From the NCBI RefSeq assembly GCF_003590145.2, contig NZ_CP060436.1, forward strand, positions 1,398,001 to 1,462,000: 64,000 bases of DNA, in the 5' to 3' direction. Every line of letters starts with the position of its first letter. Position 1 is the stretch's first letter. The notes beneath the pieces were generated by a model. The model did no database searches, had not been told where the DNA came from, and was given only the letters and a program-made list of their open reading frames with translations. This DNA comes from Pseudooceanicola algae. GTDB lineage: Bacteria > Pseudomonadota > Alphaproteobacteria > Rhodobacterales > Rhodobacteraceae. Both the position numbers and the translations under genes were made by a program. This document shows, in pieces, positions 15,102-38,520 of the stretch.

Positions 15102-17603
15102 ATGGACATAATCCTTATCACCACGGTCATTGCCTCCCTCTTCGTCGTCATCGGCGCGGCAGAGCCCTTTGCATCGCGCGTGCGGCTTCCCTACAGCGTG
15201 ATCCTTGCGGTTCTCGGCATCCTGATCGGGGCCGGAGCCACCTTTTTCCTGCGAACAGACCTGACGGATGCGCTCAACCCCGTCGCAGAGGCGATCCTTG
15301 GCCTGCCGATCAGGTCCAATGTCTTTCTATATGTCTTTCTTCCCATGTTGCTGTTCCAGGCCACGCTGGGGATGAACCTGCGGCGCATGCTGGACGATTG
15401 GGTGCCCATCCTGGTGCTGGCGGTGGTGGCCGTCGTGGTGGCGACGGTGTCCATCGGCTACGCCCTGTCCTGGGCCAGCGCGCTGCCGCTGGCGGCCTGC
15501 CTGCTGATCGGCTCCATCGTCTCGACAACCGATCCCTCGGCGGTGGTCTCGATCTTCCGCTCGATCTCGGCGCCGCGACGGCTGGCGCGGATCATCGAGG
15601 GCGAGAGCCTGTTGAACGATGCCGCGGCCATCGCATTGTTCGGTCTTTTCATGGGCTTCGTGATGCTGGGCCTGCCGGATCCGGACCTTGGCGATGCCCT
15701 GGCGCAATTTCCCGTCCTGATCGCGGGCGGCGCGCTAACCGGCTGGGTGGCCGCGCGCCTCGCGGTCTGGGTGATGGCGTTGTTCAGCCGCCATGAACTC
15801 GCCCAGCTCACGATTTCGGTCGCCTTGCCCTATCTCGCCTACATCGTGGCGGAGCAAAGTGTCGGGGCCTCCGGCGTCATCGCCGTGGTGGCTGCCGGGC
15901 TGACGCTGAACCTGACGGCGCCCGGACGCCTGCCGCCGCAGGCCTGGACCAGCCTGCGCGAGTTGTGGGACGTGCTGGCCCATTGGGCGGGCGCGCTGAT
16001 CTTCATCCTGGCCGCCTTGCTGATCCCCCGCCTGCTTGAATCGGTCCAGCTTGAGGATTTCTTCCTGGTCGGCGTGGTCATCCTGTCCGCCATCGCCGCG
16101 CGCTCGGTGATCCTGTTCGGGCTGATGCCGATCCTGACGATGCTGAAGCTGTCCCCGACCGTCGAGCGCCCCTACCGCGTGGCGATCCTATGGGGCGGGT
16201 TGCGCGGCGCGGTCACGCTGGCGCTGGCCCTTGCGGTGACCGAAAGCGTGCGCGTCCCCGACGATATCCAGCGGGTGGTCGGCATCCTTGCCACCGGGTT
16301 CACCCTGTTCACGCTGCTGGTACAGGGGACAACCCTGCGCTGGATCATCGGCTGTCTCGGGCTGGACCGGCTGTCCCCGATCGACGAGGCCCTGTCCCGG
16401 CAGGTCGTCGCCGTCGCCCTGCAGACCGTGCGCGAGGATCTGGCGCGGACCACGGAAAACTATGACCTGAACCGCGAAACCGTGCGCGCCGAGGCCAAGC
16501 GGTTCGGCGAGCGCCTCGACAAGGCCGTGAACATGGCCGAGGAAAACGCCGATATCCTGAAGCGTGACCGCATCGCCCTGGGCCTGATCGCCCTTGCCGG
16601 CCATGAACGCGACACGATTCTGGCGCGGGTGCGGGAACGCACGATCTCGGCCCGGATGGCGGATCTGGTGCTGTCTGACGCCGACCGGCTGATCGAGGGC
16701 GCGCGGACCCAGGGGCGCAGCGGATACCAGCGCGCGGCGCGCGAAAGCCTGGCCTATGGCCGGCCCTTTCAGGCTGCGGTTCAGCTGCATGGCCGCCTGC
16801 GCCTGTCGGGCCCGCTGGCACGCATGACCGCCGACCGGTTCGAACTGCTGCTGTCGCGCCGCCTGATCCTGCGCGACCTCGGGACCTTCATCAACGGGCG
16901 CATCCGGCGCATCCACGGACGCCGGGTCGCGGATCTGCTGCACGAACTTCTGTCCCGGCGGATCGAAGCCGTGGAAACCGCACTGGAAGGGCTGCGCCTG
17001 CAGTACCCCGGTTATGCCGAGGAACTTGAACGCCGTTTCATCCGTCGCACCGCGCTGCGGATGGAAGAACGCGAATATGTAGCGATGCGCGAGGACGGGT
17101 TGATCGGCGCCGAGGTCTACACCGCGCTGATGCAGGAACTCGCCGCCCGCCGGGTCTTTGCCGAGGAGCGCCCGCCGCTGGATGTCGCGATCCAGCGTGC
17201 CGCCTTCGTCCGGCAGTTCCCGTTGTTTGCGGATCTCGATGATGGCGCGATGAAACGCCTCGGACGGTCTCTGATGACGCGGTACGTCAATGCGGGCGAA
17301 ATGGTCCTGCGCAAGGAAAGCATGGCCAAAAGCGTGTTCTTCATCGCCTCCGGTGCCGTGGAACTGGAAAGTGCCGGCCATACCTGGCGTCTGGGGCGGG
17401 GCGAGATGTTCGGCCAGATGGCCGTGCTGACCAGAAAGGCCCGCCGTGCCGATGTGCGGGCCATTGCGCCGACGACGCTGCTGGTGCTGGACGAAGATAG
17501 GTTCCGCCGCCTGCTGTCGCGCAGTCAGGGCCTGCGCGAGGCGGTGCGCAACAGCGCCGAACAGCGCGGCATTGATCCCGCAGGCCTGTTGCCCGACGAA
17601 TGA
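15102..17603 (+). CDS. CPA1-family cation:proton antiporter with C-terminal cyclic-nucleotide-binding domain
   Basis: 833 aa. The N-terminal 410 residues form a 12-13 TM exchanger with the CPA1 core STTDPSAVVSIF and EGESLLNDAAAIALF (the ND pair) plus GLRGAVTLALALAV. A long helical cytoplasmic region follows (about 430-690). Residues about 700-815 are a cNMP-binding-like beta roll (FPLFADLDDGAMKRLGRSL, then GEMFGQMAVLTRKARRADVR, then DRFRRLLSR). It probably exchanges Na+ or K+ for H+ with control by a cytoplasmic ligand. The cNMP phosphate cassette is altered (GEMFGQMAVL, no clear PRxA), so ligand binding is uncertain. Confidence 0.9.
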   Translation: MDIILITTVIASLFVVIGAAEPFASRVRLPYSVILAVLGILIGAGATFFLRTDLTDALNPVAEAILGLPIRSNVFLYVFLPMLLFQATLGMNLRRMLDDWVPILVLAVVAVVVATVSIGYALSWASALPLAACLLIGSIVSTTDPSAVVSIFRSISAPRRLARIIEGESLLNDAAAIALFGLFMGFVMLGLPDPDLGDALAQFPVLIAGGALTGWVAARLAVWVMALFSRHELAQLTISVALPYLAYIVAEQSVGASGVIAVVAAGLTLNLTAPGRLPPQAWTSLRELWDVLAHWAGALIFILAALLIPRLLESVQLEDFFLVGVVILSAIAARSVILFGLMPILTMLKLSPTVERPYRVAILWGGLRGAVTLALALAVTESVRVPDDIQRVVGILATGFTLFTLLVQGTTLRWIIGCLGLDRLSPIDEALSRQVVAVALQTVREDLARTTENYDLNRETVRAEAKRFGERLDKAVNMAEENADILKRDRIALGLIALAGHERDTILARVRERTISARMADLVLSDADRLIEGARTQGRSGYQRAARESLAYGRPFQAAVQLHGRLRLSGPLARMTADRFELLLSRRLILRDLGTFINGRIRRIHGRRVADLLHELLSRRIEAVETALEGLRLQYPGYAEELERRFIRRTALRMEEREYVAMREDGLIGAEVYTALMQELAARRVFAEERPPLDVAIQRAAFVRQFPLFADLDDGAMKRLGRSLMTRYVNAGEMVLRKESMAKSVFFIASGAVELESAGHTWRLGRGEMFGQMAVLTRKARRADVRAIAPTTLLVLDEDRFRRLLSRSQGLREAVRNSAEQRGIDPAGLLPDE

Positions 17604-18267: not shown

Positions 18268-18284
18268 TGGTACCCGCGGCCGGA
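18268..18284. repeat. attL: 17-bp copy of the tRNA-Leu 3' end
   Basis: TGGTACCCGCGGCCGGA, identical to 38437-38453. Similarity stops at 18285, where the tRNA copy continues CTCGAA. It marks the tRNA-distal end of the integrated element. Confidence 0.88.
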
Positions 18285-21447: not shown

Positions 21448-21792
21448 TTAAGCGCCTGCGTCAAGCACCTCCGCGACCTTCGCGGCCGCGATACTCGCCA
21501 ACGCCCCCGGATCCGGCTTCAGCGCCTTGAGCGCGTCCGGCACACTGCGTTCGGCATGGGCAACGGCCGCCGCCACCAGCGCATCCTTGTCCACCCGCCC
21601 GCATTCCAGCGCCGCGCGGATCCCGGTCATCAGCGCCGTGTGCAGCGCCCGCTGGTGCTTTTCCTCGATCTGCACGCCGGTCCATTTCTGGAATCGCGCG
21701 GCCATCCAGCCTATTACAGCCAGAGCCATAACACTGACCACTTCGGTTAGCGCGGGCTCGAGCGCCGCGGGAATGAAAGCTTGGAAAGACAT
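21448..21792 (-). CDS. Phage holin-like small membrane protein
   Basis: 114 aa. One N-terminal membrane segment (EVVSVMALAVIGWMAARFQK) is followed by an amphipathic helical tail (EEKHQRALHTALMTGIRAAL) and an Ala-rich C-terminus. This arrangement is that of the LL-H-type holin family. The ATG at 21792 has AAAGGA upstream. It is the last gene of the lysis/tail operon, 24 nt after the amidase, consistent with a holin-endolysin pair. Confidence 0.65.
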   Translation of the reverse strand: MSFQAFIPAALEPALTEVVSVMALAVIGWMAARFQKWTGVQIEEKHQRALHTALMTGIRAALECGRVDKDALVAAAVAHAERSVPDALKALKPDPGALASIAAAKVAEVLDAGA

Positions 21793-21816
21793 GGAAGGTC
21801 CTTTCGGTCGATGGGC

Positions 21817-22353
21817 TCACGCCCGGATGAGGCGCCGAAACAGCGCAAGGAAGGATGCGAGGGGGCTGACCGGTGCCTCGGCAGGGTCCGGCGTCCAGTC
21901 TGCCTTCGGCGCGGCCATCGGCACGGCGGCATACCAGGACGGCACCCGGAATCCGGGACAGGCCTTGGCGGCATATTGATTGTGGCCGGTCACCGGCAGC
22001 GCGCCAAAGCGGTCCTGCAGGTCTGCCAAGAGGCTGCGCAGCGCGCGCTCCTGGGCCAACGTGAAGTGATCGCCGAAGGCGTCGTCGGCGGATGAGCCGT
22101 GGCCCCCGAAGAGCGAAATCCCGATGGTCCCGGTGTTTTGTCCGGCGACATGCGCCCCGGTGCGATCGAGCGGCCGCCCGGTGGCCAGGGTCCCGCCCCT
22201 GTCGATCAGGTAGTGATAGCCGATGTCGCTCCAGCCGTTGTCCTGGACGTGCCAGCGCCTGACCTCGGCCACCCGCTGCGCGGTCGTGGCGCCGGGCATG
22301 AAATCGGGCTTCGTTGCGGTGCAGTGGACGATCAGTCCGGTGATCTGCCTCAT
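21817..22353 (-). CDS. N-acetylmuramoyl-L-alanine amidase (T7-lysozyme type endolysin)
   Basis: 178 aa. Amidase_2/PGRP fold with zinc ligands visible as His in LIVHCTATK, His in VTGHNQYAAKACPGF and the Cys nine residues later. NGWSDIGYHYLIDRGG carries the conserved Tyr. Expected to cleave the amide bond between MurNAc and L-Ala during phage lysis. The start at 22353 (MRQITGLIVHC) has GGAG upstream and gives the usual N-terminus. Pairs with the holin-like gene downstream and a coiled-coil membrane protein upstream. Confidence 0.88.
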   Translation of the reverse strand: MRQITGLIVHCTATKPDFMPGATTAQRVAEVRRWHVQDNGWSDIGYHYLIDRGGTLATGRPLDRTGAHVAGQNTGTIGISLFGGHGSSADDAFGDHFTLAQERALRSLLADLQDRFGALPVTGHNQYAAKACPGFRVPSWYAAVPMAAPKADWTPDPAEAPVSPLASFLALFRRLIRA

Positions 22354-22414
22354 GGTGTTGCTCCAATGCTGGAAACCCCGCTGGCGGGGCATGTGGGTCA
22401 AAATTTAAAGAAGG

Positions 22415-22702
22415 TCAGTCGCGTCTGGTGCGATCCTCAAGGCGGACCACGATGTCGCGAACTTCACGCATTTCGCGGGTCATGTCTCGATCGTGCTCGT
22501 CCAGACGGTGGACAAGAGCCGACAGGATCGGGCGCATCTCCCCGACCTCACAAGCCGAGATAGAAGCAACCGCCTGCGCGGCCGGCGTCGGCTTTCCCCT
22601 TGCGGCTCCGCGCCATGCAACAAGGATTGTCGCGATGAACGCCGCAAACCCGGATCCAAATATCACCGCGTCTTGTTCAGTGAGACCGAGAGGCTCTAAC
22701 AT
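22415..22702 (-). CDS. Small membrane protein with C-terminal coiled coil (phage lysis module)
   Basis: 95 aa. One N-terminal membrane helix (VIFGSGFAAFIATILVAWRG) and a charged helical C-terminus with heptad-like spacing (RLDEHDRDMTREMREVRDIV). The ATG at 22702 has AGGAG about 9 nt upstream and overlaps the upstream gene by 26 bp. Location between a phage membrane protein and the endolysin suggests an Rz-like spanin or accessory lysis protein; no family motif proves it. Confidence 0.6.
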   Translation of the reverse strand: MLEPLGLTEQDAVIFGSGFAAFIATILVAWRGAARGKPTPAAQAVASISACEVGEMRPILSALVHRLDEHDRDMTREMREVRDIVVRLEDRTRRD

Positions 22703-23117
22703 CGGCACCGCTCCTGTAGGCTGCGAGGAAGTCGAACAGGGCAAGCGTCCCATAGGTCGCCGGCCCTGTGCTTAGGGCGATGTTCGAGTGCGTGATCCAA
22801 TTCCATGCAAAGGTGATTGTCAGCATGGTAAAGACGGTTGCGCCGACCACGGCCCCGACTGCCCGAAGCATCGGTGTGCGCTGCCAGGAGCCGTTGACGT
22901 AGAGCGCCACCAGCCGCATCGAGGCGAGCAGAGACAGCGGCGTTGATATCGCTGCTTCGTCAAATCCGAGGTTTCGAAACCCCTGATATGAAGGACTCAT
23001 TGTGAAAGTGTCGCCCGGCAGCGCCAGAGTCATAGCGAAGCCCAGAAGCACCAGGCTGGTCAGCCACTCAGTCGCGCGCCCGTGTTCGATCCGCGCAAAG
23101 GCTATACGGCGGGGCAT
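22677..23117 (-). CDS. Phage-associated multi-spanning membrane protein
   Basis: 146 aa with about four hydrophobic segments (TSLVLLGFAMTLAL; PLSLLASMRLVALYV; AVGAVVGATVFTMLTITFAW; TYGTLALFDFLAAY). No signal peptide and no recognised family. It lies between the tail-tip and lysis genes and is overlapped by the coiled-coil gene, so it probably belongs to the same late operon. Confidence 0.6.
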   Translation of the reverse strand: MPRRIAFARIEHGRATEWLTSLVLLGFAMTLALPGDTFTMSPSYQGFRNLGFDEAAISTPLSLLASMRLVALYVNGSWQRTPMLRAVGAVVGATVFTMLTITFAWNWITHSNIALSTGPATYGTLALFDFLAAYRSGADVRASRSH

Positions 23118-23141
23118 CAGCTTTCCCTCCTACCTAACCAG

Positions 23142-23975
23142 TCAGGCCGACCAGCTCACGACCGCCCCGACATGCGCCCGCAGGATCGCGTCCAGCGCTT
23201 CCACCTCTTCTGGGGTCAGACCCGCGCCGACAAACCATGCCCCAGCGTTGGCGGGCCCGTAGGTTGCGCTCTGTCGGCCGATCACAAGGTCGCCGTTCCG
23301 GACAGCGGCGCTCGCCCCCGTTCCCGTCAGGAGCGACGAACCGTTGCGGTAGAGCGCCGTCGCAGCGGCCCCGGTGCGCGAGGCTATCCAAAGACCCTCT
23401 TGCGCGGCGCCGCCGACACCCCCGGCAAGGTCAGCGCCAGACTGGATACGCGTTGCAACTGAGCCGCCGGTGGTGATGGCCCGCAGGTAGTTGTCCGGGG
23501 TTCCCGAAATCTCCATCCCCAGCAGGTAGTCATTGGAGGCGAAGCCGCTGCCGTCGAGAACCTGGATGCCGAAGCTCGCGCTGTTCTGGCTCAGATTCCC
23601 TGCGGTCGAGGGGTTAACGCCCATCGTGATGTAATCGCTGATGCCATCGCAGGTGAATCCGGTGGCACTGTCCCAGGTGGCGCCGTTATTCGCGCTCGCC
23701 GCGCCGCCGGTCCAGTCGATCAGACTGTCGGCTTCCGTCCGACCGTGGATGCAGAGCTGATCGAGCTTCGCCAGCAATCCGGCGTCCGTCAGATCCAGCC
23801 ACGTCTTGCCGAGCGTAAGGCGCTGCATCGCCGTGTAGGTGCCCGTGAGTTGGTCCAGGATGTTCTGGAACGACTCGGTCACATGCCATGCGTTCTGCAG
23901 GTTGGTCAGGGGGTTCGTCGCGGCGCCATCCGGGGCAGCAACGTCGAAGACGACTTCAAAGGGATAGGTGGTCAT
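23142..23975 (-). CDS. Phage tail-associated protein with lectin-like (LamG/concanavalin) fold
   Basis: 277 aa. A helical N-terminal part (about 1-85) is followed by a beta-rich Gly/Ser/Thr domain with DWTGGAASANNGATWDSATG, SFGIQVLDGSG and ALYRNGSSLLTGTGAS. The last motif is typical of concanavalin-like glucanase/laminin-G modules, which place a short strand with a Gly loop before a conserved Tyr. Ends in a short helix (TPEEVEALDAILRAHV). It probably binds surface glycans at the phage tail tip. It is encoded 11 nt downstream of the esterase-containing tail protein. Confidence 0.65.
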   Translation of the reverse strand: MTTYPFEVVFDVAAPDGAATNPLTNLQNAWHVTESFQNILDQLTGTYTAMQRLTLGKTWLDLTDAGLLAKLDQLCIHGRTEADSLIDWTGGAASANNGATWDSATGFTCDGISDYITMGVNPSTAGNLSQNSASFGIQVLDGSGFASNDYLLGMEISGTPDNYLRAITTGGSVATRIQSGADLAGGVGGAAQEGLWIASRTGAAATALYRNGSSLLTGTGASAAVRNGDLVIGRQSATYGPANAGAWFVGAGLTPEEVEALDAILRAHVGAVVSWSA

Positions 23976-23986
23976 TTATGCTGTCC

Positions 23987-26314
23987 TTAACCGATGCTGA
24001 TTTCTTGGTGGCAGAGGGGCTTGTGCATGGGAGCGCCCGTGAGGAAGGTCCCGGTCTGTTCGACCGCACGGATGGTGCTGCGGGGGATCGTGGCCTGTGC
24101 GCGCGGGCCGGCGCCGTGCCCGACCATAGCGGCCTGCACCGCCGTCGCACCGCTGGCAGCATCGCTGGTCGTGATGATCAATTCATCGCCGGCGACCGCC
24201 ACGCCCGAAACCGTGGCGCCGACCAGCGCGATCCCCGAATTTGCAAGACCGGCTTCATCGACAAGCCAGCCCGTGACGCTTTCCGCGTCTTCGGACAGCG
24301 TGACCGTGACCTCGTTTGCCCCGGTGAACGAGGCGCTGACCATGTGAAGCGGAAGCCAGCCCAGACCCTGCTCGATGCGATAAATCGCGGCCTGCTCCAT
24401 TTCCCCGCGCATCGCGTGCCCGACGCTGGTGTTGTGCAGGAAATCGTAGTCCGACCAGGGGAAGATATAGGAAGGCCCCGTGCAGAAGAAAACGCCATCC
24501 GTATCGGCCAGCGCTTCATCCAGGATCGACCGGCACCCCGCGCTGCTGTTGTAAAAGCTCGACGCCTGCGTCGAGACCATCCGCACCGGCGTTTGCTGCC
24601 CGAGGATCGCCTGCGCCTTGGCCTGCGTCTGCGCCCGCAGCAGGTTGTGATTGACGCCAAGCGTCGGAGTGGCAGGGTCAGATTCTCCCTGCTGCATCAA
24701 CATCCAGTCATAGACCGCGCTGATGCTGAGATCCGCGATCGAAGTCAGCACCGTGGTCATATTGGCCGCGTAATATTCCCCGGCGGGCGCGCCATCGAGC
24801 ATGCTCGCGATGAACTCGCCGCCCTCGGCATTCGACCAGGCCAAGATATTCGGCACCCAGTCGCCTAAGGCCGCATGGCCCGCAGCCGCATGCGCCCGCG
24901 CGGCCGCGCTGACCGAGATCGTCCCGTGCTTGTCGGCCGCCGAAATCGTGTCGACCAGATCCGTAACACCCGTGATGGCATCCGACGCCAGTTCGACAGA
25001 CGCCCCGCCCGAGGTTGCGATGCCGAGCCAGACATCCTTTGCCGCCGTCATAAGCATGGAAGGGCGATGCGCAAACTCCAGCGGGCCGGGAAACACCACG
25101 CTGCGGTCGTCGTTGGCCGTGCCCTCGGCATTGGACTGCCCGTCATTGGTCCAGATGCGATACCCGCCGAAGCGCCAGATAGATCCATCAGACAGCGCAA
25201 CGCGGACACTCACAGGAACACTGTTCTGGTCAAGGTACGTACCAATGACGCTGTTTCCGAAGACCTTGGCGGAGATCCAAGTCCGGTCAGCGCTGTCATC
25301 CAGCAGCCGAGCGCCGCCCGTGCCGGTGGATACGTAGAGCGCCCCGTCAACCACGTAGGCGTCACCCTGCGTCGGTCCGGGGTCAACCGGGGCCAAAGAG
25401 ACAATGTACCCGTCCTGATCCACCTCTCGAACAGAAATGGCCCCCTCCCCCTCCATGTACCCAAGAGTGCGGCGCATTTCGGCCAGGCTGACCTCGACGA
25501 TAGTTTGATCCACGGCAACACCCCCGGAAAGTCGCAGAGAACGGATGACGATGCCGTTGATGTCAACCAGTTGGGGAACCGCATTCAAGTTGAGCCCCTC
25601 CCCGGTCATGCGGCCAAGCGTTGCTCGCATCGTCTTGAGCGCGATTTCCTCCTGCGTCGCACGCGAAGAAAAGGCATCCGCGTCCTGAGCAGCAGCCGTG
25701 CCCACCTCCGCCTGCTGCACCGCTGTCTCTGCAAGGGCGCCCTGCGCGGCCGTGGCATAGGCCGCCGAAAGGCTGGCGAGATCGAGGAAGGCCGTAAAGC
25801 TGACAGGGTCGGTCCCGACTGAATTGATCGCGCTTGTGCAGACAAAGACCTGGTTGGCGTAGGTGCCGCCCGTGATCTGGATCGCCGCATTGGCGAACTC
25901 GCCCGCCTCGTCCATGTCCGTTGCGCGGGCCCATGCGCCGGCGGCCGTAATGTATGGCCCATTTTCTGCCGGGTTGGCCTGCCCGGCGACAAGAACGCGG
26001 CTCGCCGAGGTCATCACGCCGCTGACCGCCTGCTCTCCCGACAGGGCGATATCGCCGGTCGATACCGTGACAGCCGGAAGGCGCGGCGAAAGCCCCGCAG
26101 CCGAGATCGCTTGCAATTGCGAGATCTCGCCCTCGGCGGCGGCGACGCGATTGTCGAGCGCCGTCACCGCCTGAGCCTGCACCACCAGCCCTTGCTCGGC
26201 CGCTTCGATCGCAAGGTTCTGCTCTTCGCCGAACCGCGTCGCATCCTGGGGCAGCGGCTGGTGCAAGGAGGAATTTCCCTCCCAAACCTCCTGGGGTGTT
26301 TTCGTAAGTTGCAT
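23987..26314 (-). CDS. Phage tail protein with GQSN-type (SASA/CE6-like) carbohydrate esterase domain
   Basis: 775 aa. A helical N-terminus (about 30-70) precedes beta-rich phage tail segments (about 75-180, SGVMTSASRVLVAGQANPAE). From about residue 385 there is an SGNH-like hydrolase. The nucleophile motif NDGQSNAEG places Ser394, QQGESD lies at about 541-546, and an Asp-x2-His pair (DFLH) lies near 624-627. This matches the sialate O-acetylesterase/CE6 family, so deacetylation of host capsule or LPS is predicted. The ATG at 26314 has GAGG upstream. The C-terminal 90 residues form another beta module. Confidence 0.8.
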   Translation of the reverse strand: MQLTKTPQEVWEGNSSLHQPLPQDATRFGEEQNLAIEAAEQGLVVQAQAVTALDNRVAAAEGEISQLQAISAAGLSPRLPAVTVSTGDIALSGEQAVSGVMTSASRVLVAGQANPAENGPYITAAGAWARATDMDEAGEFANAAIQITGGTYANQVFVCTSAINSVGTDPVSFTAFLDLASLSAAYATAAQGALAETAVQQAEVGTAAAQDADAFSSRATQEEIALKTMRATLGRMTGEGLNLNAVPQLVDINGIVIRSLRLSGGVAVDQTIVEVSLAEMRRTLGYMEGEGAISVREVDQDGYIVSLAPVDPGPTQGDAYVVDGALYVSTGTGGARLLDDSADRTWISAKVFGNSVIGTYLDQNSVPVSVRVALSDGSIWRFGGYRIWTNDGQSNAEGTANDDRSVVFPGPLEFAHRPSMLMTAAKDVWLGIATSGGASVELASDAITGVTDLVDTISAADKHGTISVSAAARAHAAAGHAALGDWVPNILAWSNAEGGEFIASMLDGAPAGEYYAANMTTVLTSIADLSISAVYDWMLMQQGESDPATPTLGVNHNLLRAQTQAKAQAILGQQTPVRMVSTQASSFYNSSAGCRSILDEALADTDGVFFCTGPSYIFPWSDYDFLHNTSVGHAMRGEMEQAAIYRIEQGLGWLPLHMVSASFTGANEVTVTLSEDAESVTGWLVDEAGLANSGIALVGATVSGVAVAGDELIITTSDAASGATAVQAAMVGHGAGPRAQATIPRSTIRAVEQTGTFLTGAPMHKPLCHQEISIG

Positions 26315-29321: not shown

Positions 29322-29564
29322 ATGGCTGATTATCACATTTCGAAGGATGCAGCTGGGTGGAAGGTCACCAAAGCAGGGGGTCAGAAAGCTTCCGCATCCG
29401 CTAGCACAAAAGCCGAAGCACAAGATATTGCCAAGAAATTGGCAATATCGTCAGGTGGCGGTGAGGTAAGAGAGTATGCTTCACGAGATGGTTCGGTTCA
29501 CAAAAGAGGCCAGATCATTGATAGCGACACGCACGGAAAACCCGATCCGAAAGGCAACGGCTGA
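29322..29564 (+). CDS. DUF2188 domain protein
   Basis: 80 aa. The full DUF2188 pattern is visible: N-terminal YHISKDAAGWKVTKAGGQKA, the STKAEAQDIAKKLA helix, and the end SRDGSVHKRGQIIDSDTHGK. Widespread small protein of unknown function, often on mobile DNA. The 213 nt before it (29109-29321) hold no supported gene. Confidence 0.75.
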   Translation: MADYHISKDAAGWKVTKAGGQKASASASTKAEAQDIAKKLAISSGGGEVREYASRDGSVHKRGQIIDSDTHGKPDPKGNG

Positions 29565-30466: not shown

Positions 30467-32992
30467 GTGTTATTAGAATACTTCTTTTCAGAAGATATCA
30501 GGGGCAGGCCGTTGGCGTCAAAAGATAAGAGATACTTTTTTTCAGTTGGGCAGAAGAGCTTTGAGGCCGGCACTGGCCCAAACCATTTTTCCACCGTCGT
30601 TCCGATTGCCGATGTGAACGGAGAGATCATCGGTGACCGCTTGGTGGAGTTCCCTAATCGCGGCCGGGTCTGGTGGATGCTGCGCGGCGAAGCTCGCGTG
30701 ACCCATGCGCCGCCAGGCTGTCTTATCATGTCTGGCATTGAGGACTCGATGGACCTGTCTTCGTCGCCAGAAAAGGACGTCTATCAGCTTCTACAGCCCA
30801 CCCTTCCCGGCCCGAAGGACTTAATTGAGGTCCTGACACCGGGCGCCGAGATCACCGATCCGAACGCCTTGCTCGACGGTTTCCGGATGCGCTGCGATCA
30901 TGAGCCGACGCGACATGTCCTCGTGCGGATCGGCGATCACCTTTATGGGCCGCTGAAGGTCGAATTGGACCGCCCCGAGAATGACCGGTTGATCGAGCCA
31001 GAAATCCATTTCAGCAAGCCGGTCGCGCCGCATGTTGTCTATAGGATTGCCGTTGGCGACGCGGAGGGACGCACTGGCCACATTCGGCACAAGGTGATCG
31101 TACAGCGTGACGCCAGCAAGCCGGACGATCAGATCGGGCACACTGTTCGTTACGAGGCGATCACCGGCGCTTTGTATGAAGACCTGCGGGAGGGGGCACA
31201 GGAGGTTGATCTCGTTTCCCTGCAGGATGCTGTCCGGCAGATTTCGCGCGATTTTTTGTCGCGAAAAGAGCGACGTGAGTTCATGGAACGGCTCAACCGA
31301 TTTGCCGACGAGGCGCAGTCAGGGCCGACCGTTATCGCACGGATTCAAAGCTTTCTGGACCAGCAGAACAAGGAACTCGACAGACTTGATCAGATTTTCG
31401 AAGCTCTCCTGACTGACGAGAGCTTCAAGCCAAAGATCGATCAGGCCGTCGCGACTGAGGTCGAAAAGCGCGTGGACGCGCAAGCCGCACGAATTGACGC
31501 CCTTGCGAAAGAGCGAGTCGCCAAGCTGACCGCGGAACTCGAGCAGCTTGAAGAGGTATTGCGAACGAAACGCGACGATTTCGATAGGGAAGCCGATCGC
31601 AAGCTGAAGGCTCTGGACGCGGAAATCGTCGCTCAGCATGAAGCAGCAAGAGAGAAGATCGCAAACCAGAAAGAAGAACTCGTCTGGCAGGAGCAAATCC
31701 TGGAAGAGAGTCTGAAGGAGATATCCGCCAAGCTCTCAGAGAACCGTATGGGGGTGGTGAACGACTTCCTTGCATTGGAGCCGCTTCTTTCGCGCCTCGG
31801 TCTCGGCGGATCGGCGCGACCGGATGATCGGAGGGACGCAGGAACGGTGAAGGAGGCGGCTGCACCCGCCTTGCACCTACCTGAGTATGCAACCCCAACC
31901 GAAGAGCGTGCAGCCCTACTCGAAGAGGACTTCTTCGAGCGGTTTGCTACGCATGTTGAGGAGAGCGGCTTCATCTTCGACCGCGGGGACCTTCTGGCTT
32001 TCCATCTATGCGCCAAGGAGCGTGCGCCTGTCATTCTGGGCGGTGTGTCCGGGTCCGGTAAATCGTCTCTGCCTGTGCTCTATGCAGAAGCAATTGCCGG
32101 GCAGGACGCCGACCAGAGCCATCTGGCTGTGGACGTGAACCCATCGTGGACTAGCCCTGCAGACCTACTCGGCTATACCGATGCACTGGAACACCGTTTC
32201 ATTCCGGCGGCGTCGGGATTGCTGAATCAAATGATCCTCGCCTCTCATGCGCGCAAGGTTCTTAGGGCGTCTGCGCCGGTATTCTCCGTCTGCCTCGAAG
32301 AACTGAACCTTGCGCAGCCCGAGCACTACCTTGCCGATGTGATTCAGGCGATATCACGAGCGCCGGGGAACCAGTTCATAAGCGTCTTCGATCCCAACGC
32401 AGTGCGGATCGACGATCCCTTCCGGCCATACGCACGCCTCGAACTTGCGCCGAACCTGATAATCGTCGGGACAGTGAACTTCGACGAAACGACGCGACCG
32501 TTGTCGATGCGCCTTCTTGATCGGTGCAACCTGATCGAATTCGTCGTGGATGAAAGTCTTCCCGTTCTCGGAATGTCTGCACAGACCGGCGCGCGGGTGG
32601 TTGAGGGACCAGGCGTGCTGCAGGCGGACCGGGACCGGTGGACACGGAACAGCAACGTCCCTGCGCGGGCAATTGAGATCTTGGGGAAGATACAGCCTGA
32701 ACTCAGTGTGCTTGGCTGCGGGCTCACCCACCGGCGCCAGACCTCGATCTGCCGATTCATCGCCAATGCTCCCGAGAGCCTTTGCAACTTCGATCAGGCA
32801 TTGGACATGCAATTGCGCCAACGCATCCTGCCGCAGATCCGGGGGCTGTATCGGCCGGGGGCGATGGAGGCCTTGGGACGTCTTGCCGAAAAGCTCGAGA
32901 AGGCAACCGATATTCCGAGGACCCTTCAATCGCTCGCCCGACTGGAGTCTGACGCACGAGCATCCGACGATATGTTCCTCGGTGAAGAATGA
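30467..32992 (+). CDS. McrB-like AAA+ NTPase with long coiled coil
   Basis: 841 aa. A novel-looking N-terminal region (about 1-240) precedes a long charged coiled coil (about 325-430, e.g. LTAELEQLEEVLRTKRDDFD). An AAA+ module follows with Walker A GGVSGSGKSSL (about 525-535), Walker B VFSVCLEELN (about 605-614), sensor 1 IIVGTVNFDE (about 664-673) and a likely arginine finger in MRLLDR. The GTxNxD sensor fits the McrB clade. It should act with the downstream nuclease to cut foreign, probably modified, DNA. The start is a weak GTG; a TTG at 30512 (reading ASKDKRYFF) is an alternative. Stop overlaps the next ATG by 4 bp. Confidence 0.8.
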   Translation: MLLEYFFSEDIRGRPLASKDKRYFFSVGQKSFEAGTGPNHFSTVVPIADVNGEIIGDRLVEFPNRGRVWWMLRGEARVTHAPPGCLIMSGIEDSMDLSSSPEKDVYQLLQPTLPGPKDLIEVLTPGAEITDPNALLDGFRMRCDHEPTRHVLVRIGDHLYGPLKVELDRPENDRLIEPEIHFSKPVAPHVVYRIAVGDAEGRTGHIRHKVIVQRDASKPDDQIGHTVRYEAITGALYEDLREGAQEVDLVSLQDAVRQISRDFLSRKERREFMERLNRFADEAQSGPTVIARIQSFLDQQNKELDRLDQIFEALLTDESFKPKIDQAVATEVEKRVDAQAARIDALAKERVAKLTAELEQLEEVLRTKRDDFDREADRKLKALDAEIVAQHEAAREKIANQKEELVWQEQILEESLKEISAKLSENRMGVVNDFLALEPLLSRLGLGGSARPDDRRDAGTVKEAAAPALHLPEYATPTEERAALLEEDFFERFATHVEESGFIFDRGDLLAFHLCAKERAPVILGGVSGSGKSSLPVLYAEAIAGQDADQSHLAVDVNPSWTSPADLLGYTDALEHRFIPAASGLLNQMILASHARKVLRASAPVFSVCLEELNLAQPEHYLADVIQAISRAPGNQFISVFDPNAVRIDDPFRPYARLELAPNLIIVGTVNFDETTRPLSMRLLDRCNLIEFVVDESLPVLGMSAQTGARVVEGPGVLQADRDRWTRNSNVPARAIEILGKIQPELSVLGCGLTHRRQTSICRFIANAPESLCNFDQALDMQLRQRILPQIRGLYRPGAMEALGRLAEKLEKATDIPRTLQSLARLESDARASDDMFLGEE

Positions 32993-34779
32993 CAGACTTC
33001 GTCATCTTCTCAGGTCGCTCGACGCTGCTCGAAGTCCCTCTTGGCAAGTCTCAAGCCGTACACAGCTTCGAGGTGCCGGAGACTGCGCGCATCGGTTTTG
33101 AGGTCGACGATTACGAAGAGGGCGTGATCTACCAAATAACTGTTGGGGACATTCCGATCGCTGAACGACCGCAGGAGCGCCGATCGCGTCTGGAGTGGCA
33201 GGCATCGCCTTGTCTGGATGGCGCATTCGGCGTGACCCCAATCAGTCTTCGGGATGCCACAAATGGCGAAATACTTGCCCGAACTCTCGCGCTTGTCGAG
33301 CCCAGCAAGCTGACCGTAAACGCTTATGACGCCATGTTCGAAGACATGCGGCGCATCAGTGTCGAGTTGTTGCTCGACCTGATCTCGAAATCCCGTCTGG
33401 CGCTTGCGCAGCTTCCCTCGTCGCGCGATGGCGGTGTGCAGCCCCTCACGGCACGTCTGGAACTGAGTCAGATCCGGCTCTTCTGGAAACGCTTCTCCCC
33501 AATCTTGGCGGATATTCTCGAGGATCCTCACACGGAGCTGCGACCACGACAAGTTACCCGGCAGCTTAAGCCGGGAGAGCGACTCACGCCCGACGTCTTG
33601 CGACGGTTTGCCCACAGAGGGCAAACCGCTCGCGACGCCGTGCGATCAGGTGGTCTCGTGGAACTTTCGACAGCAGTCCAGGACAGGAACACCAGCGAGA
33701 ACCGGGTGATCGTCGCGTTCATGGATCTCCTTCGGCGGCGGGTCGACCATAGCCTCAGGCGCGCCCGGTCAGAACGCGAGATGCGGCTTGCGCGTAAGAA
33801 TGGCTATGGAATCTCTGACGCAGGATTAGCCCGATTCGTACAACTGCGAGAGGACCCTAAGATCGCGAGGCTGCAGGAAATCGTCGACGCCTGCGAAGGC
33901 ACGATGTCCGAGATCCACAGGGCGATGCAGAGTTTCGCCGTGCCTGTCACTCGCATGGGGCGGCAGGACTTTCTCGCCAGCTTCAACTGTCCCTTTTTCC
34001 GAAGCCATCCGCTGTATGCGCGTGCTGCACGATTGATGTTGGCGTTCCTGAACAACACTACGATCGTCGTAGAGCAAGGAGACGTGGAAGGCGCCAAGTC
34101 GATCGAGACCATCTTCGAGCAGTGGGTTTTCTTCCAGGTATCCGCAGCTCTCCAGGCCGCTGGGTTGTCCTGCATTTCGCACAATTCAATTTTTGAACCG
34201 ATTGCAAGAGATCGTTTCTCGGTCGATCTGGATCGGAATGCGGCGATCGATTTTGAGGCCCCGGACAAGCGTATCGCGCGCCTGCGCTATGAGCCCACAA
34301 TCCTCCCGCGCGGAGCAGCGCAGGGCATGGATACTCTTTACCGCGGAAACTCGGCGTCTCCATGGACGCCGGATATAGTGTTGGAGATTTTGGCCCCGAG
34401 CTCCGATCTGCGCGACTACCGGGTCACATATGCCGCCGTGATCGACGCAAAATACACAACAGCGGGAAATGTGTGGGATCGTCTGGAGAAGATCGAGAAA
34501 TATCGCGAGATCAGAAGCGTCGATACCGATAGCCAAATTGCTCGCCAAGTTTGGATCGCGGCACCGATCGCGCCATCGCTACGACCGCGCGACGAAGCCG
34601 TAACCTGGTCAAAGAGCGGCTATGTAGGTGCCGATCCCCTTGACGTTATTCTGGGGGTCATTGGGGCAGATCCGGCCGATCGGGATGAGACCCGATCCAT
34701 GCTTAAAGCCTTTATCTTGGGTTTACTAAGGCATTCCAAGGAGTACGAAAAGGCCACCAGTCGGAATGTAAATAGTTAA
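32989..34779 (+). CDS. McrC-like DUF2357/DUF524-type PD-(D/E)XK nuclease
   Basis: 596 aa. The N-terminal DUF2357-like region runs to about residue 330. A nuclease domain with IFEQWVFFQV (about 375-384), TPDIVLEI (about 460-467) and VIDAKYT (about 484-490) gives the PD...DxK catalytic set of the restriction-endonuclease fold. The ATGA overlap with the AAA+ gene shows a two-gene translational unit. The pair corresponds to McrB (motor) and McrC (cleavage). It differs from E. coli McrBC by the coiled coil in the partner and the DUF2357 architecture here. The target modification is unknown. Confidence 0.82.
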   Translation: MTDFVIFSGRSTLLEVPLGKSQAVHSFEVPETARIGFEVDDYEEGVIYQITVGDIPIAERPQERRSRLEWQASPCLDGAFGVTPISLRDATNGEILARTLALVEPSKLTVNAYDAMFEDMRRISVELLLDLISKSRLALAQLPSSRDGGVQPLTARLELSQIRLFWKRFSPILADILEDPHTELRPRQVTRQLKPGERLTPDVLRRFAHRGQTARDAVRSGGLVELSTAVQDRNTSENRVIVAFMDLLRRRVDHSLRRARSEREMRLARKNGYGISDAGLARFVQLREDPKIARLQEIVDACEGTMSEIHRAMQSFAVPVTRMGRQDFLASFNCPFFRSHPLYARAARLMLAFLNNTTIVVEQGDVEGAKSIETIFEQWVFFQVSAALQAAGLSCISHNSIFEPIARDRFSVDLDRNAAIDFEAPDKRIARLRYEPTILPRGAAQGMDTLYRGNSASPWTPDIVLEILAPSSDLRDYRVTYAAVIDAKYTTAGNVWDRLEKIEKYREIRSVDTDSQIARQVWIAAPIAPSLRPRDEAVTWSKSGYVGADPLDVILGVIGADPADRDETRSMLKAFILGLLRHSKEYEKATSRNVNS

Positions 34780-35119: not shown

Positions 35120-35968
35120 TTATGGCAATCCGTACTCGGCTCTGAGCGTCATCAAGTCAGCTATTAGCTGCTCTGCCATTTGCTTCGTATAGATACGCGT
35201 GATCCGCCCATCGTGTTGTCTCTGGATGAGCTTGCGCAGATCGTTCGCACGCGCCTTCCAGGTCAGACCGTCGGTAATCAACAGAAGACTGGCATCATTG
35301 CGCTTGGCGCCAATGATTGCATCAACATCACCGATGATATCGCTCATCTTGGACCCTGTTGCCCCGTAACCTTTCGCTTCAATCAAGATTAGTGGTGTCG
35401 CCTTGTTGGGAATGGCGAAGTCGCATTTCGCCGTGCCGTTTACGCCTTGAAACGTACATCTAGGCTCATAGCTGGGTCCAAAGACTTGCTGGATAATCTC
35501 TTCAACAAAATCTTCGAGCCCCCTACCCCTTTGTTGCCCCTGTATAGCACTTCCACGCCCAGATCTCAGCCGTTCGCGCAAGACATCGCTCCAGACAGGC
35601 TCTCGATTGACGATCGCTGTCATGGCGTCGCGAAGCCCCATCTCTTCGAGAACGTCGAGATATTCTTCACGGCCTGCTTGAAAACGTTTGACGCCGGTCC
35701 CACCTGGGCCAAGTTTTTCGGCCAACTCGCCATGCAATTTGTCCTTCGAAAACCCGAGGAACAAGCCAACGCAAAATCGAGACACCTCGAATGCTTTCCC
35801 ATCGTTTGCCTCGATCAAGGCGGCGATGTCGTCGCGACCATATTCACGCTTGATGGGAACCGCATGGATCCGATCCATGATGTCTTGCGCCATATCGTCC
35901 ATCCAGCTCGCCTCAAGTGGCGATAAACTGGCAATTATGTCATCGAAGTGCTGAACGACGGGTCTCAT
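35120..35968 (-). CDS. Type II restriction endonuclease (PD-(D/E)XK)
   Basis: 282 aa. The C-terminal half has the restriction-nuclease core AKCDFAIPN...LILIEAKGYGATGSK with catalytic Asp183, Glu197 and Lys199, followed by DIIGDVDAIIGAKRNDASLL. The N-terminal half is helical and probably recognises DNA. Its ATG overlaps the methyltransferase stop by ATGA, so the cognate methylase is made first from the same transcript. The recognition sequence is not predictable; similarity to DpnII-like enzymes is possible but unverified. GC content is well below the chromosome. Confidence 0.8.
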   Translation of the reverse strand: MRPVVQHFDDIIASLSPLEASWMDDMAQDIMDRIHAVPIKREYGRDDIAALIEANDGKAFEVSRFCVGLFLGFSKDKLHGELAEKLGPGGTGVKRFQAGREEYLDVLEEMGLRDAMTAIVNREPVWSDVLRERLRSGRGSAIQGQQRGRGLEDFVEEIIQQVFGPSYEPRCTFQGVNGTAKCDFAIPNKATPLILIEAKGYGATGSKMSDIIGDVDAIIGAKRNDASLLLITDGLTWKARANDLRKLIQRQHDGRITRIYTKQMAEQLIADLMTLRAEYGLP

Positions 35969-37059
35969 ACCTGACCCACGATGAGGTATTCCTCTACGGC
36001 TGCGCGTTTCACCTTGCTATGCGTCCCAAAGTGATAGGTGTGATCACGACGGAACACTCGAACATCTCGTTTGGTCTCGCCCATGAGAGATGTGAGCTCG
36101 TCCAGATCAGGATATCCATTGGAGCTATAGGATAGGACGATCGTCTGATGTTTGAAACGCGCGAAAAGGCGCCTGAACGCATCCACGGCTTCCTTGCGAT
36201 AGCTAAAGGGGGTGAACTTCTTTGGTATTTTTCGCACTTTGGTGGAGTAGTCGATGTCCAGTCCTTGCCAGTAGCAGGACAACCCCTCCAAGAAATGGTA
36301 GCGCTTGATGTAGCAGTTATCGTCAGCGCGCGGGACGTAAGGCGGATCCAGATAGACTAGATCAATGCCTTTGGTCGCCACCTTAAACACATCGTTTCGT
36401 TGTGCATGGTTTCGGCGGCCGTTCGAAAACACAGCCTCGTTGAACGCCTCTACTTGCTCGAAAAAGTGTTCTTCAACGGACAACCGAAGGTCCCGGCGGC
36501 CATCATCGTACTTGGAAAGATCCCCCGAGATCGTGAAAACCCCGCGTGGTTGCCGTTTGGCGCAGGATCGCATTAAGGCCGACATAGCGAGGGCCTGCTG
36601 ATGGGTGTTGTCGAGCTGGCGAATGTTGCACGAGATGCGATCAAGGAATCTAAGATCGGCATCGGTATAAAAAATCCCAGAGAACGTCTCTTCGATGAAG
36701 TTATGTGTGTTCGCAGGCCGTGACATGAGGGTTTTCATGGCAGGACCGTCAAGATGGACAGAGTTGTTCTGGATAAGAGCCTTTCCGATAGTGCTCGATA
36801 GGTTCAGAAAGTCAGAGGAAACTGTACGTTTATCCATAGATTTCAGTAGGTAAGCAACTGATGTACTTCCGCTAAAAGCATCTAGAGCTGTTTCGAACTC
36901 AAGAGTACTCAACACGTCATGGATCCAGGGCAACAAACGCTTCTTGGAGCCCATGTACCTGATCTCAGGGAACATGCCTATCTGATCCAGAGGGGGTCTT
37001 GTGAGATGTGAATGCTTTGTGACGGTTAGTGAGTCGTCTGGTATTACTTGAGGTTTCAT
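35965..37059 (-). CDS. DNA adenine (N6) methyltransferase, D12 class
   Basis: 364 aa. Motif X/I region RYMGSKKRLLPW (about 34-45) and DAFSGSTSVAYLL (about 60-72) bind AdoMet, and motif IV is DPPY at 238-241. Order and spacing fit the alpha-class (Dam/D12) N6-adenine methyltransferases. It is the modification partner of the downstream endonuclease (4-bp overlap). Low GC and distinct codon use indicate recent transfer. The recognition site is unknown. Confidence 0.9.
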   Translation of the reverse strand: MKPQVIPDDSLTVTKHSHLTRPPLDQIGMFPEIRYMGSKKRLLPWIHDVLSTLEFETALDAFSGSTSVAYLLKSMDKRTVSSDFLNLSSTIGKALIQNNSVHLDGPAMKTLMSRPANTHNFIEETFSGIFYTDADLRFLDRISCNIRQLDNTHQQALAMSALMRSCAKRQPRGVFTISGDLSKYDDGRRDLRLSVEEHFFEQVEAFNEAVFSNGRRNHAQRNDVFKVATKGIDLVYLDPPYVPRADDNCYIKRYHFLEGLSCYWQGLDIDYSTKVRKIPKKFTPFSYRKEAVDAFRRLFARFKHQTIVLSYSSNGYPDLDELTSLMGETKRDVRVFRRDHTYHFGTHSKVKRAAVEEYLIVGQV

Positions 37060-37333: not shown

Positions 37334-38296
37334 CTAGTCCAGACGTCGGGCCAACTCCTCGGCCGTTTCGTCATAGTAAATCATCAGCATCTTGATATCC
37401 CGGTGCCCCACCATCTTTGCCAGGGCCAAAGGATCCAGCTTCCGCGACAGCCGCGTGATCGCCTCATGCCGGGAGTCGTGGAAGTTCAACCCTTCAATAG
37501 CCGCCAAGCCGCGCAGCTTACGCCAGTTTGCATCCAACCGGGCCGAGGTCATCCCGAACACAGGCTCCGCCTTCGGTAGCGCTTCCAGAAGTCGCACCGC
37601 TTCCTTCGACAGGGGCACGTCGCGGCCCGCCCCATTCTTCGTCAGGTGCAGCCGCGCAACGCGCCGCTCGAGGTCCAGGTCAGCCCCCCGCAAGCCGCAA
37701 ATTTCGCCCGCCCGCATGCCGGTCTCGATCGCGAACAGGAAGGCAGCATGGGCGCGGGCCTGCGCCCGCGTCAGATCCTCGCCAGCCACGAAGGCCAGGC
37801 GGTCCAACTCATCCTTCGACGGCCGTCGTTCGCGCTTGTGCGGGGCCGTGGGGCGGCGCACGTCGGACATGGGGCTGGTCTTGATCATCCCCCACTCGCG
37901 TCGCGCCTGAGTCATCACCGCGGACAGCAGGTTCATTTCCCTGTTCACCGTCGCAGCCTGCACCGTGCGCAAACGACCATCCCGCCAACTCGCGAAATTC
38001 TCGGCCGTCAGATCGGCCACCATCTTGCGGGCCAGGTCAGAGCGCTTGAGCCGGTCGATTTGCCGGACCTCCCAAACTTCGCTGCGCTTGGTGACAGAGA
38101 CCTCCCTGGCGTATCGCTCCAGCACGTCGCCGAAGAGTGTAGCGGCAGCGACAGCCTCGCGGTTGAGGATCAGGTATTCCTGTCGGGCAGCCCAGTCCTT
38201 GGCTTCCCGTTGTGTTGGGAATACCTTCGAGGCGCGAACACCCTTGCGGGCGATCTCAGCGCGCCACCCCTTGGCCAGTTTCCGAATCGAAGCCAC
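37334..38296 (-). CDS. Tyrosine site-specific integrase
   Basis: 320 aa, complete. An N-terminal SAM-like core-binding domain (about 50-140) precedes the catalytic domain with Arg195 (TGMRAGE), His273-x2-Arg276 (FHDSRH), His298 (GHRD) and the nucleophile at Tyr307/308 (MIYYDET). It starts 140 nt from the tRNA-Leu 3' end and reads away from it, the usual position for the integrase of an element inserted at that tRNA. It should catalyse recombination at the 17-bp att core. Confidence 0.93.
   Translation of the reverse strand: MASIRKLAKGWRAEIARKGVRASKVFPTQREAKDWAARQEYLILNREAVAAATLFGDVLERYAREVSVTKRSEVWEVRQIDRLKRSDLARKMVADLTAENFASWRDGRLRTVQAATVNREMNLLSAVMTQARREWGMIKTSPMSDVRRPTAPHKRERRPSKDELDRLAFVAGEDLTRAQARAHAAFLFAIETGMRAGEICGLRGADLDLERRVARLHLTKNGAGRDVPLSKEAVRLLEALPKAEPVFGMTSARLDANWRKLRGLAAIEGLNFHDSRHEAITRLSRKLDPLALAKMVGHRDIKMLMIYYDETAEELARRLD

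Positions 38297-38436: not shown

Positions 38437-38520
<84 letters not shown>

Follow-up and report, generated by a model that had tools for sequence, protein, structure and literature searches.

A two-gene McrBC system with a Type I CoCoNuT-like, I-C-like layout in a likely tRNA-Leu-linked element of Pseudooceanicola algae

The 64,000-nucleotide stretch of the Pseudooceanicola algae genome analyzed here (contig NZ_CP060436.1, positions 1,398,001 to 1,462,000; hereafter the window) carries two adjoining open reading frames (ORFs) that an initial annotation, made from the sequence alone, had described as an McrBC-like motor with a long coiled coil and its partner nuclease. Both are found where they had been placed, as an 841-amino-acid ORF with a GTG start (30467-32992) and a 596-amino-acid ORF with an ATG start (32989-34779) that share a 4-base overlap. 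Their products, here termed CnuB-like and CnuC-like, probably form a two-gene McrBC system of Type I CoCoNuT kind, with an I-C-like layout and GTP-driven cutting triggered by single-stranded nucleic acid. Statements on published CoCoNuT types follow Bell et al. 2024 (PMC11090510) and a second article (PMC12458937). The features of the pair are as follows.

30467..32992, + strand: CnuB-like NxD GTPase (841-amino-acid ORF starting at GTG, or about 826 amino acids from the likelier start, TTG 30512; PADLOC PDC-M26A)
30506..30823, + strand: predicted OB-fold, cold-shock-domain-like, CnuB-like residues 14-119
30824..31171, + strand: predicted second all-beta domain, OB-like hint only, CnuB-like residues 120-235 (model secondary structure; Foldseek)
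31430..31774, + strand: predicted coiled coil, CnuB-like residues 322-436 (amphipathic-periodicity band test)
31934..32989, + strand: McrB-family AAA+ GTPase module, residues 490-841 (alignment with NxD McrB-family GTPases)
32039..32065, + strand: Walker A GGVSGSGKS, residues 525-533
32297..32302, + strand: Walker B E611-E612 (D-E instead in six relatives)
32477..32488, + strand: NxD(E) signature N671-F-D673-E674 (motif meaning from PMC11090510, section 7)
32989..34779, + strand: CnuC-like McrC homologue, 596 amino acids
32989..33306, + strand: predicted Ig-like beta-sandwich, CnuC-like residues 1-106
33271..33780, + strand: DUF2357 match, CnuC-like residues 95-264 (Pfam)
34111..34479, + strand: PD-(D/E)XK nuclease domain, residues 375-497 (Pfam stretch), with PD at 461-462 and DAK at 486-488

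The motifs GGVSGSGKSSL and GTVNFDE reported by the initial annotation are present in the first ORF, and its McrB-type module stands insofar as the whole module aligns with the McrB family, although GTVNFDE is an NxD motif and not the canonical NxxD of McrBC, which was found neither in the window protein nor in its family. The possibility, raised there, that the protein falls outside the McrB clade is not borne out, as it aligns with NxD McrB-family GTPases. The NxD motif of CoCoNuT GTPases is described as usually followed by E or D (PMC11090510). NxDE is kept in all seven members of the family made up of the window protein and six relatives, as is a spacing of 59 residues between Walker B and NxD (46-76 in other measured loci). 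No Pfam or NCBIfam model matched the CnuB-like protein as a whole at E <= 0.1, and residues 303-626 match PADLOC PDC-M26A (5.9e-26). Its true length is probably about 826 amino acids, because the TTG at 30512, which is preceded by AGGGGCAGG, agrees with the starts of the relatives and residues 1-15 lie below pLDDT 50 in the model.

The coiled coil of about 100 residues that had been proposed ahead of the AAA+ module is confirmed by sequence, with its position refined to residues 322-436 or thereabouts. This segment holds 2 Pro/Gly in 115 residues, D/E/K/R/Q account for 47% of it, and its amphipathic periodicity was equalled by 6 of 400 shuffles (0 to 12 of 400 in the six relatives). A plain 3.5-residue Fourier test, applied to 70-residue windows, failed to set those within 297-436 apart from the rest, so that the coil call rests on helix character and the band test, which point to an extensive coiled coil in all seven family proteins.

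The N-terminal region had been regarded as unrecognized, which holds for whole-protein Pfam and NCBIfam matches; in the predicted structure, however, it looks like an OB/cold-shock-like domain followed by a second beta domain. For the latter, Foldseek gave long alignments to tandem-OB proteins, but with low template-modelling (TM) scores, and at E <= 0.001 it returned no match for either the CnuB-like or the CnuC-like model. No Pfam model matched the second domain of the window protein, and none exceeded its cut-off in the corresponding region of six family members; matches under cut-off there were TOBE_3 (0.098) for L022 and Colicin_Pyocin (0.016) for L024. Protein Data Bank sequence searches gave no match with single proteins and P-loop, coil and chance-like matches with profiles. 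Homology of the second domain to the CnuC Ig domain is unsupported (hhalign E 0.13), as is that of the N-terminus to Type I-B CnuB N-termini, for which a collinear 49-column local match is not significant (E 0.075) and is absent in global mode; TEAD rows in the Foldseek output were taken as chance (query TM about 0.1). The family shares the consensus N-terminal motifs VxQxPFE, FPNRGxxWW (in which L024 deviates) and YQ, a set that can be used for finding more members.

A rival account is canonical restriction of modified DNA in the manner of E. coli McrBC, in which the N-terminal domains would recognize a modified base on double-stranded phage DNA and the CnuC-like protein would cut after GTP-driven translocation. 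In its favor, some NxD relatives use an EVE or MrcB_N domain as reader, some have methyltransferase neighbors, and the predicted McrC-like fold and the PD...DxK residues are retained here; however, Pfam revealed neither EVE nor MrcB_N nor any other known reader in the CnuB-like N-terminal region, the motif is NxD instead of NxxD and the long coil is foreign to canonical McrB, and we regard this mode of action as unlikely.

The second ORF had been proposed to encode a DUF2357-type nuclease, and it does match PF04411 (PDDEXK_7, 2.5e-5) above the curated cut-off and PF09823 (DUF2357, 7.5e-5) slightly below it. The pair possesses the McrC homologue with DUF2357 expected of a CoCoNuT, and the N-terminal Ig-like (RhoGDI1-like) domain that is a feature of Type I-C CnuC is also present. 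Concern that the PD-(D/E)XK fold might not be intact is eased by the PD...DxK residues, kept in 7/7 family nucleases (recognized by eye in L026 and by pattern in the other six), and by the predicted model, which matches solved McrC chains. A CPxC motif was not seen in the CnuC-like sequence.

Relatives were drawn from the best 80 of 466 stretches confirmed in a scan of genome contigs with GTPase alignment A1. Six of these 80 show similarity beyond the GTPase by blastp: metagenome-assembled genomes of Vicinamibacteria (L022), Phycisphaerales (L023), Victivallales (L041) and Planctomycetota (L024 and L026), and an uncultured isolate (L025) in which the N-terminal part sits in another frame. Residues 1-300 as sole query matched L022, L026, L041, L023 and L025 at E <= 1e-3; L024 gave no match at that threshold, and its full-length match begins at residue 21. 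The two-gene linkage is conserved: in 6/6 relatives a nuclease ORF lies where the GTPase gene ends, including L026, where the tblastn match is weak (0.099) yet RPDI...DAK is present. No upstream coil ORF adjoins the pair in the window or in the six relatives, most neighbors being judged from ORF lists.

GTPase-level matches occur in one of 59 other lineage relatives (G011) and, within a class sample, in a single genome (G101) out of 384 others. Near its home lineage the family is rare: the N-terminal profile found none in 397 other genomes of a phylum sample or in 389 of an order sample, and the nuclease had no match in the 294 genomes of a family sample, these samples overlapping. Peptide patterns revealed no close relatives in genome contigs, viral contigs or phage records, and neither the nuclease nor the N-terminus had a match in plasmids; the N-terminal profile was likewise without a match in viral contigs. 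Plasmid tblastn matched 85 records, in all of which identity stayed under 60% and query coverage fell short of 80%, and the 60 matches listed concern mostly the GTPase module. The picture is that of a two-gene, defense-type system that is intact-looking and rare.

In a 53-row GTPase tree the seven members group together (support 85/76) and join a set of 15 I-B-like and 6 II/III-like rows at 90/87, and forcing the window protein inside the I-B set is rejected (approximately unbiased test, p 0.0001). A 91-row quick tree, with SH-aLRT support only, places the seven members together at 96 and the wider group at 86; a 56-row tree including long-branch rows did not recover the wider group with I-B-like and II/III-like systems. 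The reference labels are not published ones and were assigned here from gene context: I-B-like from a coil-rich ORF upstream in 14 of 15 loci (none in view in L033), and II/III-like from two upstream genes, one of them encoding an AAA domain (L012 and L103), or from an own coil and tree position (L016, L019, L082 and L105). The trees contained no published Type I-A or I-C sequence. The locus in G011, of the same genus as the window (L019, 7239-9257), encodes an NxD GTPase distinct from the CnuB-like protein, which has its coil fused and groups with II/III-like systems, and the NxD GTPases of L051, L068 and L088 (908-991 amino acids) form a tight group of their own, their N-terminal regions being without a Pfam match above cut-off.

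The pair appears to lie in an integrated element, the features of which are listed below.

18268..18284, no strand: second 17-bp repeat copy, a candidate for the far boundary of the element
35120..35968, - strand: DpnII-like restriction endonuclease, convergent neighbor (Pfam 8.2e-8; PADLOC)
35965..37059, - strand: D12-class adenine methyltransferase (Pfam 9.2e-16; PADLOC 4.9e-102)
37334..38296, - strand: phage-type integrase beside tRNA-Leu
38437..38453, no strand: 17-bp repeat copy at the tRNA-Leu 3' end (att-like)

A copy of the 17-bp piece from the tRNA-Leu 3' end is present at 18268 (0 in 100 shuffles), and G+C content is 51-60% in 1-kb bins of 29-38 kb versus 62-66% in flanking bins. On the right, sequence from about 38.67 kb onward is common to all 22 genus genomes searched, own included, among which 36.9-38.4 kb is mostly not shared (a 65% match in G008 spans query positions 437-1621). 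A clean empty site was not found: in the relatives the left-flank core ends at about 18198, and it was not located next to the tRNA in those genomes, so that the left boundary is unproven. It is likely that 18268-38453 is an integrated element comprising the tRNA-Leu repeat, integrase, tail-fiber genes, a restriction-modification pair (whose ORFs share a 4-base overlap) and the CnuBC-like system, with 18268 as a candidate far end. The stretch 21468-24000 has a second copy, 98% identical, at G000:C1:634543-637075, and the host therefore has another stretch with the same tail-type genes. Upstream of the pair, 29322-29564 encodes a DUF2188 protein that is a PADLOC candidate (PDC-S16, 5.1e-9). At 15102-17603 lies an 833-amino-acid Na+/H+ antiporter-like protein whose C-terminal residues 702-821 match, all under cut-off, models that we take to hold cyclic-nucleotide-binding domains.

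Residence in a likely element with phage tail and integrase genes invites the notion that the pair is no restriction system but an anti-element or abortive-infection device of that element, responding to a phage structure or to stress by degrading host nucleic acid, and an abortive arm has been proposed for CoCoNuTs (PMC11090510). That article, however, ties CoCoNuT RNA killing to HEPN or other extra nucleases, and none was recognized beside the pair among the Pfam-scanned neighbors (part of the ORFs), leaving this a doubtful account. A reading in which a degenerate prophage carries the system as a remnant, decayed or inactive, seems quite improbable: Walker B has E for D, and a PHROGs scan of 10 proteins recognized only tail fiber (with one secondary virion-structural match) and integrase, but both ORFs are full length with their 4-base overlap, and the invariant Walker A, NxD, PD and DxK residues are kept.

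Domain types and the analogy with E. coli McrBC suggest that the CoCoNuT-like pair would act in defense through GTP-driven restriction triggered by single-stranded nucleic acid or RNA. The CnuB-like protein would probably assemble into a GTP-hydrolyzing AAA+ ring on long coiled-coil stalks, the ends of which would bear OB-type beta domains. These would bind single-stranded DNA or RNA, the latter of phage origin or tRNA/mRNA-like, and thereby drive the ring. The CnuC-like protein would dock on this ring via DUF2357, stimulating GTP hydrolysis, and its PD-(D/E)XK domain would then cut nucleic acid, most likely DNA, while its Ig-like domain may regulate the GTPase. According to the 2024 article (PMC11090510), no NxD McrB GTPase had been characterized by then; that CoCoNuTs target RNA is a prediction. 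The phrase 'coiled-coil nuclease tandem' occurs in four of the literature records searched, all dated 2023 or later, one of which is the preprint of the eLife article. Among the literature records listed, none is by title or abstract opening an experimental study of a Type I CoCoNuT, which is not proof of absence. A compact two-gene system that keeps its nuclease signature is a convenient test case and, since no helper gene was seen, trigger and substrate could be assayed with two proteins.

Among known systems, the pair shares with E. coli McrBC (Type IV restriction) an AAA+ GTPase and an McrC with DUF2357-like and PD-(D/E)XK parts, but differs in having NxD for NxxD, a long coiled coil, a predicted OB-like N-terminus where E. 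coli McrB has a methylcytosine reader, and an extra Ig-like domain in the nuclease. The PDC-M26A profile match spans coil and GTPase; PDC-M26A is a candidate family only, and none of the papers listed in a literature search used the name. Druantia Types I and II, termed Type IV CoCoNuT, resemble the pair in carrying a homologue of CnuB whose coiled coil is extended, but that homologue is described as inactivated, and they have a YprA-family helicase (PMC12458937), of a kind not seen here. Type I-B CoCoNuTs resemble the pair in their NxD GTPase and in a CnuC with an Ig-like domain (PMC11090510), and I-B-like rows belong to the tree group that the family joins; a separate upstream coil-rich ORF sets 14 of the 15 I-B-like loci apart, and their GTPases have coil scores of 0 to 0.47 versus 0.58 to 0.73 in the six relatives. 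Types I-A and I-C share a two-gene plan, in which a GTPase with cold-shock domain (CSD), coil and NxD accompanies an Ig-DUF2357-nuclease protein (PMC11090510). Two genes, a fused coil and a predicted CSD-like OB-fold are held in common with Type I-A, but its helical insert, judged here from the Walker B-NxD spacing, is absent, as is CPxC in the nuclease.

Because the I-A insert is absent, Type I-C fits best: it too has only two genes, a CnuB with coil, NxD GTPase and a CSD-like OB-fold (here predicted), and a CnuC with Ig-like N-terminus, DUF2357 and PD-(D/E)XK (PMC11090510), a likeness drawn from the published description. The YTH-like domain that I-C often has between CSD and coil is not recognized, the second beta domain lying there instead. 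It is tempting, if speculative, to postulate an additional subtype of Type I ('I-D'), its CSD-YTH reader replaced by two OB-like domains in a row. Such a minimal NxD machine of two proteins, spread across phyla by mobile elements, would sense single-stranded nucleic acid instead of a modified base and cut with an active McrC nuclease. The suggestion that the pair might be a member of the coiled-coil McrBC group, or an extension of it, is supported as the best reading, and CSD-like OB-folds had already been reported for CoCoNuTs (PMC11090510). With a YTH-like domain unproven, the pair best fits as a new example of this already described group, in a Type I layout closest to that of I-C.
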